In this document: one piece after another, positions 25,047 through 29,881 of the stretch
How positions within the stretch are numbered: the stretch's first letter is position 1
Layout: each line of letters opens with the position of its first letter
Assembly (NCBI GenBank): GCA_007118565.1
Contig: SKRI01000064.1
Location: forward strand, 1 to 45,952
Length of the DNA stretch: 45,952 bases
Reading direction: 5' to 3'
Origin: Gemmatimonadota bacterium
Lineage (GTDB): Bacteria; Gemmatimonadota; Gemmatimonadetes; Longimicrobiales; Longimicrobiaceae
Program-made: the position numbers and the translations under genes
Notes under the pieces: generated by a model
The model's database searches: none
The model's input: only the letters and a program-made list of their open reading frames with translations
Told to the model about the DNA's origin: nothing

Positions 25047-25130
25047 TACCGGGAGGGGGACTCGAACCCCCAAGGCCCGAAGGCCGGCGGATTTTGAGTC
25101 CGCTGCGTCTACCAGTTCCGCCATCCCGGC
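25047..25130 (-). tRNA. tRNA-Leu (anticodon CAA)
   Basis: 84 nt on the minus strand. The acceptor arm is GCCGGGA paired with TCCCGGT plus discriminator A. The anticodon stem GCGGA/TCCGC encloses the loop CTCAAAA, giving anticodon CAA (reads UUG). A long variable arm (CGGCCTTCGGGCC region) and a T arm GGGGGTTCGAGTCCCCC are characteristic of class II tRNA-Leu. The 3' CCA is not encoded (the next bases are TTC). A spurious protein frame through it begins MAELVDAADSKSAG, a well-known artefact of translated tRNA-Leu genes. A promoter with ideal spacing lies just upstream. Confidence 0.97.
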
Positions 25131-26988: not shown

Positions 26989-28449
26989 GTGACGCAGACT
27001 GATACTATTCTGGAACCGGGCCGGCTCTTCATCGGCGGCGAATGGCGCGATGCCGCCTCCGGCCGGAGCTTCGAGACGGTCAACCCCAGCAACGGCGAGG
27101 TGCTCACCACCGTGGCCGAGGCCGGCAAGGATGATGTCGACGCCGCGGTGCAGGCGGCCCGCTCAGCCTTCCCCGCCTGGGCGGAGACGGATCCGCGGAA
27201 GCGCGCGAAGCTCCTCTTCCGCATCGCCGACGAGCTCGAGGCACGCAAGGACGAGCTGGGCCGGCTGGAGGCGCTCGACAACGGCAAGCCGTACCGGCAA
27301 GCGCGGAATATCGACGTGGTCGACGCCGCCAAGGCATTCCGCTACTACGCGGGTTGGGCGGACAAGATCGAGGGCGACGTGCTTCCCGCCCCGGGGGCCC
27401 ACCTGGCCTACACGCGCCGGGAGCCAGTCGGGGTCTGCGGGGCCATCATCCCCTGGAACTACCCACTCCTGATGGCCGCCTGGAAGGTGGCCCCGGCGCT
27501 GGCGTGCGGGAACACGGTCGTCCTCAAGCCCGCCGAGCAGACTCCGCTCACCGCGCTCGAGCTCGGGCGTATCATCGCCGAGGTGGGGGTGCCGGCCGGC
27601 GTGGTCAACATCCTCACCGGCTTCGGCGACCCCGCGGGCGCCGCGATCGTGGCCCACCCGGATGTGGACAAGATCGCCTTCACCGGCTCGACCGCCGTGG
27701 GCAAGCTCATCCAGCGGGAGGCGGCCGGAACGCTCAAGCGCATCTCCCTCGAGCTGGGCGGAAAGAGCCCGAACATCGTCTTCGCCGACGCCGACATGGA
27801 GGCGGCGGTGAAGGGCGCGGCCACCGGGATCCTCTACAACACCGGACAGGCCTGCACCGCGGGATCGCGACTCCTGCTGGAGGCGTCCATCCACGACGAG
27901 TTCATGGAGAAGCTGAAGGCGCGGGTCGAGCGCATGACGCCCGGCGACGCCTTCGACGACAAGACCCGCCTCGGTCCCCTCGTCTCGCAGGAGCAGCTGG
28001 ACCAGGTGATGGGGTACGTGGAGAAGGGGAAGGCCGAGGGCGCCGAGCTCGTCACCGGCGGTGACCGGGCAAATGTGAACGGTGGCAAAGGCTTCTTTTT
28101 GAGTCCCACCATCTTCGATCGGGTAACGCCGGAGATGACCATCGCCCGCGAGGAGATCTTCGGACCGGTCCTCGCCGTCTCCACCTTCGAGGACATGGAC
28201 GACGCGGTCGCGCAGGGCAACGCCACCGAGTACGGGCTGGCAGCCGCGGTCTGGACGCGGGACGTGGCCAAGGCGCACCTCGCGGCGCACCGGCTGCACG
28301 CCGGCACGGTCTGGATCAACACCTACCACGTCATGGACACCGGCGCCCCCTTCGGCGGCTACAAGCAGTCCGGCTACGGACGCGAGCTGGGCAAGAACGC
28401 CATCGACCTGTACACGCAGGTGAAGACGGTGTGGGTGAATCTGGGGTGA
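26989..28449 (+). CDS. NAD(P)-dependent aldehyde dehydrogenase
   Basis: 486 residues, normal for the ALDH superfamily. Key sites seen are IIPWNYPLLMAAWKVAPALACGN (catalytic Asn in WNYP), VVLKPAEQTPLTALEL, FTGSTAVGKLI (cofactor loop), LELGGKSPNIV (general-base Glu) and NTGQACTAGSRLLL (nucleophile Cys). The order and spacing match betaine-/hydroxymuconic-semialdehyde-like ALDHs; it lacks the extra hydratase domain of PaaZ. It oxidises an aldehyde to the acid, or in some families to an acyl-CoA. The start is GTG at 26989 with no strong ribosome site. It lies within the acyl-CoA oxidation block, so an aldehyde intermediate or side product is probable (inference). Confidence 0.9.
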   Translation: MTQTDTILEPGRLFIGGEWRDAASGRSFETVNPSNGEVLTTVAEAGKDDVDAAVQAARSAFPAWAETDPRKRAKLLFRIADELEARKDELGRLEALDNGKPYRQARNIDVVDAAKAFRYYAGWADKIEGDVLPAPGAHLAYTRREPVGVCGAIIPWNYPLLMAAWKVAPALACGNTVVLKPAEQTPLTALELGRIIAEVGVPAGVVNILTGFGDPAGAAIVAHPDVDKIAFTGSTAVGKLIQREAAGTLKRISLELGGKSPNIVFADADMEAAVKGAATGILYNTGQACTAGSRLLLEASIHDEFMEKLKARVERMTPGDAFDDKTRLGPLVSQEQLDQVMGYVEKGKAEGAELVTGGDRANVNGGKGFFLSPTIFDRVTPEMTIAREEIFGPVLAVSTFEDMDDAVAQGNATEYGLAAAVWTRDVAKAHLAAHRLHAGTVWINTYHVMDTGAPFGGYKQSGYGRELGKNAIDLYTQVKTVWVNLG

Positions 28450-28458
28450 GGATGAGAA

Positions 28459-28669
28459 CGCGGCTCGCGGCTCGCGGCTCGCGGCTCGCGGGGAACAGCC
28501 GATGGCTCGCAGCTCGTTGCTTGCTGCTCGCAAACTACCCTCGGATGCAAGGAAGTGCGCAGCAGCGCCTCCCTTCAACGGAGCGGGGTGTGGGGAGGCC
28601 GCGGGAACTGCCAGGTCTTGAATCCCCGACGCCGTTTAGCGAGCAGCGAGCAGCGAGCAGCCAGCCGCG
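28459..28669. repeat. 211-bp element with 31-bp imperfect inverted ends made of 7-bp repeats
   Basis: The left end (28459-28489) contains four tandem CGGCTCG units. The right end (28639-28669) contains three tandem GAGCAGC units. The reverse complement of the right end matches the left end at 27 of 31 positions. Between them lies a third, decayed run of GCTCGC-like units (about 28506-28532). The right end abuts the thiolase ATG. No open reading frame is convincing inside. It resembles a small palindromic repeat element (REP/MITE-like), but no other copy is recognised in this window. Confidence 0.6.
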
Positions 28670-29881
28670 ATGAATTTCCCCCTCATCCTGGACGCCTGCC
28701 GCACGCCGGTCGGGCGGCACGGCGGCGCGCTGGCGAGCGTCCGGCCCGACGACCTTGCGGCCGTCGCCATCCGCGCCCTCGTCGCACGCACCGGGATCGA
28801 CCCGGAGACCCTCGACGACGTGATCCTCGGCTGCGCCAACCAGGCGGGAGAGGACAACCGCAACATCGCCCGCATGGCAGCGCTCCTGGCCGACCTCCCG
28901 GTCAGCGTACCCGGCCAGACGGTGAACCGGCTCTGCGGCTCCGGGCTGCAGGCGGTGGTCTCGGCCGCGCAGGCCATCCGTGCCGGGGAGGGAGATGTCT
29001 TCATCGGCGGGGGTGCGGAGAGCATGTCGCGCGCACCCTGGGTCATGCTGAAGCCGGAAAACGGATATCCGCGCGGGGTCCCCGAGACCGCCGACTCCCT
29101 TCTGGGGTGGCGCTTCGTCAATCCGAAGATGCCTGATGAGTGGACGGTGGCCCTCGGGGAGACTGCGGAAATCCTGGCCACCGAGTACGGCATTTCCCGC
29201 GAGGAGCAGGACGATTTCGCCCTGCGCAGCCAGGAGCGGGCCGCACGGGCGATGGAGAGTGGGCGCTTCGACGACGAGATCGTGCCGGTTGAGGTTCCCC
29301 GCCGGAAGCGGGACCCGCTGATCGTGGACCGTGACGAGCACCCCCGCCCGGAAACGGACCGGGAGGCGCTGAGCCGCCTGCGACCGGCATTCCGGCGCGA
29401 CGGGGGGACGGTGACCGCCGGCAACGCCTCCGGGCTCAACGACGGCGCCGCCGCCCTCCTCATCGCCTCCCGCGAGGCGGCCTCCGCCGCCGGGGTTCGC
29501 CCCATCGCCCGCATCCTTGCGAGCGCGGTGGCCGGCGTGGAGCCGAATCGGATGGGGATCGGCCCGGTGCCGGCCGCGCGCCGGGCGCTGCGGCGGGCGG
29601 GGATCACCACCGCCGATGTCGGGCTGGTCGAGCTGAACGAGGCCTTCGCCGCGCAGTCCCTGCCCTGCATCCATGAGCTGGGCCTCGATCCGGAGATCGT
29701 CAACGTCAACGGCGGTGCCATCGCCCTCGGCCACCCGCTCGGCGCCTCCGGGGCCCGCATCCTGACCAGCCTCGTGCACGAGATGAGGCGGCGAAAGGTG
29801 CGTTACGGGCTGGCGGCGCTCTGCATCGGGGTTGGACAGGGGATCGCGACCGTCATCGAGCGGGTCGAGGAGGATGGCTGA
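28670..29881 (+). CDS. Acetyl-CoA acyltransferase (thiolase), PaaJ/PcaF-like
   Basis: 403 residues, full length. The nucleophile is in [12 protein letters not shown] (Cys ~91), the [12 protein letters not shown] motif follows, then the active-site [17 protein letters not shown] (His) and [13 protein letters not shown] (Cys). VNRLCGSG is characteristic of beta-ketoadipyl-/3-oxoadipyl-CoA thiolases and close relatives, so an aromatic-degradation or general beta-oxidation role is possible. It cleaves 3-ketoacyl-CoA with CoA to acetyl-CoA. The ATG directly follows the right end of the inverted-repeat element, leaving GAGCAGC as the only ribosome-site-like sequence. It overlaps the next gene by 8 bp. 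Confidence 0.92.

Follow-up and report, generated by a model that had tools for sequence, protein, structure and literature searches.

A heptad-array element upstream of a thiolase gene as a probable gene-less copy of a dispersed, IVP-associated repeat

Results

The window analyzed here, a stretch of 45,952 nucleotides from a Gemmatimonadota bacterium, contains a 211-bp repeat element (28459-28669) that is located between two protein genes and not in a 23S rRNA gene. The upstream neighbor is an aldehyde dehydrogenase gene (26989-28449, plus strand; taken from the open reading frame list and from orthologs in relatives), whose stop codon lies 9 bp before the element. The downstream neighbor is a thiolase gene (28670-29881, plus strand; open reading frame list and starts in relatives), for which the ATG at 28670 is supported because the starts in relatives align there. 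A tRNA gene on the minus strand (25047-25130) was the sole Rfam match in the window.

The element opens with an outer left array of 4.7 perfect heptads (GCTCGCG; 28459-28491, plus strand), detected by the array scan and by TRF (period 7, 100%). An inner left array of four decayed heptads in the same orientation (28505-28531, plus strand) was detected by the array scan and is paired in the RNA fold. It is followed by a 107-bp interior (28532-28638), which lacks an IVP gene and is unlike the interiors of the other copies read, and by a right array of 4.7 inverted heptads (28639-28670, minus strand; TRF, 28638-28670, period 7, 4.7 copies, 88%). The last scanned base of the right array is the A of the thiolase ATG. 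An earlier sequence-only reading had described 31-bp inverted ends that agree at 27 of 31 positions, consist of CGGCTCG-type heptads and reach the thiolase start codon. All of this was borne out, and the best ungapped pairing of the ends (28459-28489 with 28639-28669, inverted) gave the same 27/31.

The inverted match between the left and right ends (score 21) was equalled by none of 4,000 random segment pairs from the window, and the score of 19.5 for the inner run against the right end by two of 4,000. Folded as RNA, the element (214 nt) forms a long stem from its terminal inverted repeats, with a predicted energy of -122.4 kcal/mol (z = -4.65; 0 of 200 shuffles equally good). In this fold the inner run, together with its AAAC flank, pairs with the right end and its GTTT. 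Because the two are paired together with their flanks, we take the inner run to have been the right end's first partner; 28505-28670 is then probably the oldest pair of the element, and the perfect outer array is probably a younger, solo array that was added later. The decayed run noticed in the sequence-only reading exists and probably represents the true counterpart of the right end. A double left end is also present in a second copy, on contig C181.

A search of the 2.9-Mb genome for GCTCGCNGCTCGCNGCTCGC at up to two mismatches returned 68 forward and 73 reverse matches (reversed control, 3 and 2), where matches overlap within one array. At up to one mismatch the unit gave 45 and 47 matches in this genome, whereas 54 of 60 relatives had none and the other six had 1-3. 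Across 37 regions, which cover most of the listed matches, a fixed threshold yielded 66 arrays, in which 22 neighboring pairs pointed inward and none outward; the corresponding counts in two other genomes, among the places listed, were 9 and 0, and 4 and 0. Interior lengths ranged from 45 to 186 bp in 21 of the 22 pairs and reached 376 bp in one, with a median of 86.5 bp for the gene-less copies. The window element is one of many dispersed copies and not a product of local slippage. A simple sequence repeat that arose by slippage at this locus only, the single-copy case that the sequence-only reading had considered, is ruled out by the dozens of sites and by an array inside tsaB.

The aldehyde dehydrogenase-thiolase junction was compared in 15 relatives of the same family in which both genes are adjacent. 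Empty sites, with a gap of 9-22 bp, were found in four. The remaining junctions hold 88-97-bp hairpins built from other heptads (AAGTGCT and AGTGCCC types) in five relatives, octad arrays around a small ORF in two, HicB-like ORFs without clear arrays in two, and other sequence, of 193 and 256 bp, in two. Elements with other heptads or octads thus occupy this position in 7 of the 15, and the junction is an insertion hotspot. Small HicB-like ORFs lie here in four relatives (L105, L109, L111 and L112), two of them between octad arrays; the L112 ORF resembles HicB below the Pfam cut-off, the L109 ORF, between octad arrays, had no Pfam match, and L111 apparently includes a HicA-like ORF as well, as judged by eye.

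Two solo arrays were also compared with relatives. For one on contig C176, the flank matches are 115-142 bp apart in this genome and -2 to 35 bp apart in eight of nine relatives, the ninth having a longer gap of 478 bp. The other is a 30-bp array located in frame within tsaB, where it adds residues between CYEF and DGG. At this site 12 of 14 relatives have a 3-11-residue gap, variably placed, and the other two (L333 and L338) span it with their own sequence. Two further arrays (L074, 938-971; L071, 257-288) appear by eye to abut, or may replace, the start regions of gltX-like and queA-like genes.

Although the window copy contains no IVP/S23p ORF, one other copy in the same genome does. On contig C267 an array pair encloses a 23S_rRNA_IVP gene (PF05635, E = 2.8e-35), whose product is homologous to XCC0516, a pentameric ring of known structure (2gsc; E = 3e-26). 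The sequence-only reading had suggested looking for a transposase partner of the RAYT/TnpA type; the gene between this array pair is instead a member of PF05635. IVP is not known to contain a nuclease or polymerase motif. A second IVP gene of this genome, on contig C88, lies near a run of the GGGAACAAC type and not of GCTCGCN, and the contig ends within the gene.

The arrangement seen on C267 is common among IVP genes. From a pooled set of 138 loci, 131 remained after deduplication; flanks of equal length were used, and three had flanks that were too short. Inverted arms surrounded 103 of the 128 distinct IVP genes, from many phyla, compared with 7 of 355 shifted windows, and were absent at the threshold from 25. 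The arms were tandem in 98 of the 103 (3 among the shifted windows), with a period of 7 in 80, 8 in 11 and 6 in 7. Among the relatives, arms scoring at least 15 were present at 26 of 28 PF05635 genes and at none of 29 ribosomal S15 genes, two PF05635 genes and one S15 gene having been left out for short flanks. With slightly shorter flanks, arms were found at 50 of 79 named loci drawn from many phyla, one further locus having flanks that were too short. These loci were the best 80 of 580 from a scan of the collection with a narrowed IVP alignment and are hence biased toward close IVPs. Controls with mispaired flanks reached a score of at least 15 in 16 (IVP), 41 (PDDEXK_3) and 87 (S15) of 300 cases, and were not taken as a background, since the flanks of orthologs match when they lie on opposite strands; self-paired S15 genes and the shifted windows were used instead. 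A location of array-less IVP genes in rRNA found no support, as none of 20 IVP loci picked for low arm scores had a match to any Rfam family.

The array unit and its period vary between elements, yet they match at the two ends of any one element. On a tree of 69 IVPs, built from 118 columns and with 29 of 66 inner branches open, array period required 8 changes, compared with 14.3 after shuffling, and none of 200 shuffles was as low; period 8 alone accounted for six changes. Arm similarity was correlated with IVP identity (Mantel r = 0.296; 0 of 2,000 permutations), the mean arm score rising from 4.5 below 25% identity to 17.4 above 70% (10 pairs). Among 47 representatives below 60% IVP identity the correlation was weak (r = 0.165, p = 0.008). 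Shared descent of whole elements accounts for part of this relationship.

Genome-wide abundance provided a further comparison. GGGAATS arrays were abundant in only two of 36 genomes, with 124 and 120 matches. In one, a Dokdonella, a matching IVP was already known. In the other, a planctomycete whose previously known IVP had another unit, a matching IVP was predicted and then found: among its five IVP genes, the arms of L356 are GGAATCGGGAAGCCGGAATC and those of L360 are GGGATTC. A Rhodanobacter carried a related unit, with seven matches only. A high-copy unit is not always accompanied by a matching IVP, since genome G006 has 27 AGTGCCC matches, 11 of them in one long array, and a single IVP with octad arms. 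IVP, a small ring-forming protein, appears to have evolved together with the array word.

Hallmarks of conventional transposition were then sought. A looser hand list contained 25 pairs, of which 24 were used for a test of target-site duplication, L064 being left out as doubtful. A flank match of at least 5 nt occurred in 1 of the 24 elements (L066, 7 nt), compared with 3.1% of mispaired flanks, and target-site duplication beyond chance, for which the sequence-only reading had suggested a search, was therefore not observed. Shared interiors were sought among the copies, and matches ran only through the arrays, except for two of 24-27 nt. Simple deletion derivatives are disfavored because the interiors of gene-less copies are unrelated though similar in length, and cut-and-paste of the DDE type fits poorly because of these interiors, the lack of target duplications and the solo 30-bp insertion. 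A MITE of the DDE type would have target-site duplication and shared internal sequence, neither of which was seen here.

These results amend the REP/MITE-like character that had been proposed for the element. It is dispersed and mostly intergenic, its ends are paired inward, and it is missing at the junction in some relatives, all of which agrees with the proposal. It is not a canonical MITE, however, given the lack of target-site duplication in 24 elements and their unrelated interiors, and the partner gene identified encodes an IVP/S23p four-helix bundle and not RAYT. Heptad-based ends, which had been regarded as unusual, are instead a hallmark of the IVP-associated repeat family.

Discussion

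The closest working model for these repeats is the REPIN/RAYT system, the case for which has drawn on the same three kinds of evidence. As described in the relevant parts of Nunvar 2010 (PMC2817692), a gene lies between two inverted copies of a dispersed repeat, with pairs and singles dispersed elsewhere; repeat and protein co-evolve, and copy number tracks the presence of the gene. The components differ. A REP is a short palindrome headed by GT(A/G)G (e.g., GTAG), whereas the ends here are tandem heptads (GCTCGCN), and RAYT is a tyrosine transposase resembling those of IS200/IS605, whereas the enclosed gene here encodes a four-helix bundle of PF05635.

The anatomy itself is already known from the heptads of Xanthomonas and an rRNA insert of Coxiella. 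According to the sections of Warrier 2016 (PMC4990558) considered here, the Coxiella intervening sequence comprises an S23p ORF between terminal inverted repeats with a 28-bp stem, and three tandem heptamers (GACAGAT) lie just before the ORF; unlike that insert, which is in rRNA and carries an ORF, the window element is intergenic and gene-less. The same sections cite an older proposal that the S23p ORF served mobility, and they do not tie the heptamers to dispersed repeats. In Xanthomonas, GGGAATC repeats mostly comprise four heptads, are mostly intergenic and form convergent inverted pairs (70 in Xcc and 75 in Xac), with no general association with mobile elements and no function reported in the corresponding parts of Rehm 2015 (PMC4692102); this is the four-heptad, convergent anatomy seen here, with another unit. 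The terms "0516" and "23S" are absent from that text. The Beggiatoaceae have dispersed intergenic runs of TAACTGA near start codons, and MacGregor 2015 (PMC4679880) raised the possibility that some repeat-binding protein may be the mobile part. In contrast to the paired arrays here, TAACTGA was described as a direct repeat, apart from a single inverted case, and the text of that paper contains no mention of four-helix proteins, S23 or intervening sequences. The IVP fold has a structural homolog in Avd of diversity-generating retroelements, which acts with a reverse transcriptase (PMC10053308, in part). Our literature search, the coverage of which excluded most subscription papers and bioRxiv, found heptad repeats nowhere joined to IVP genes, and the link may be in print elsewhere.

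Given these observations, we consider it likely that the window element belongs, as a copy without the gene, to a dispersed, IVP-associated mobile repeat, and that this repeat operates in a REPIN/RAYT-like manner with an unrelated protein. IVP would recognize arrays built from its own unit, in duplex form or as a hairpin in single-stranded DNA or RNA, and would promote their spread in trans, much as RAYT does for its REPs. Gene-less copies and single 30-bp arrays would then still be able to spread, and the intervening sequences of 23S rRNA would represent such elements residing within an rRNA gene. The finding that rRNA-borne S23p of Coxiella is thought not to be expressed (PMC4990558, in the sections considered) counts against this explanation. 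So do the lack of target-site duplications, the unrelated interiors, the 25 IVP genes without arms, the unmatched unit of G006, the relatives that depart from the pattern at the C176 and tsaB arrays, the many open branches of the IVP tree and the weak correlation below 60% identity. The copy described here would be tolerated for its position, which follows the stop codon of one gene and precedes the start codon of the next, both genes being read in the same direction. More generally, the data suggest a widespread, little-noticed family of selfish DNA across many bacterial phyla.

Other explanations of the arrays were also considered. They might be hairpins useful to the host as mRNA stabilizers, terminators or regulators, with IVP as an RNA-binding user and copy number set by selection. 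Such a role would agree with the strong hairpin of the window element (z = -4.65), with the location of arrays at operon junctions and with the transcription and conserved location reported for Xanthomonas in the parts of Rehm 2015 considered (PMC4692102), yet we judge it unlikely, as the junction is empty or filled by unrelated elements in relatives, the unit is nearly private to this genome among 61 and one array lies in frame inside tsaB. A conventional transposon family, in which a DDE or HUH transposase moves the arrays and the IVP gene is mere cargo, seems quite improbable. The 24 elements lack target-site duplications, and unit and period track IVP relationship, which would not be required of cargo, although the small ORFs of other kinds between octad arrays at L109 and L112 speak for this explanation.

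Finally, heptad runs might arise in place by local slippage and hairpin-templated correction, the ends copying each other without any mobility. The arms of one element are indeed alike, and in many bacteria the most frequent long simple repeats are described as heptads (PMC4679880 and PMC4692102, in the parts considered). However, this explanation is largely contradicted already by the presence of one unit at dozens of loci in this genome and at almost none in relatives, by the solo array in tsaB and by pairing that is inward only, and we regard it as very improbable.

Beyond the IVP-associated, REPIN/RAYT-like repeat favored above, a broader proposal can be put forward tentatively, as one that may well prove too inclusive: that IVP/S23p proteins are the mobility factors of bacteria-wide selfish elements without a recognizable transposase, in which a ring reads the array, a 30-bp array can be the mobile unit, and heptad repeats and rRNA inserts form one system. 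The ring protein would read both the period and the sequence of the array, and a bare 30-bp array would insert without target duplication. Such a system would unite the Xanthomonas GGGAATC, Beggiatoa TAACTGA and other heptads with the rRNA intervening sequences. The association of IVP with heptad arrays would provide a cause for two long-standing puzzles, why heptamers outnumber other long simple repeats in so many bacterial genomes and what role the S23p/IVP gene of rRNA intervening sequences has. IVP proteins would be expected to bind arrays made of their own unit, and the number of arrays to track the presence of IVP between strains.

Two other repeat types were encountered during this analysis. 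A palindrome of the type CCCCTCTCCCA...TGGGAGAGGGG, a second dispersed repeat, adjoins several of the single arrays (L065, L070, L071 and L083). In addition, PDDEXK_3/GxxExxY genes of the relatives (L241-L268) are flanked by inverted arms in 15 of 25 cases, with 9-mer units such as CACAGAGGA or CGCGGAGAA, and such loci may form a second class with this architecture; the copy in this genome (L241) has an arm score of 14.5, just below the threshold.
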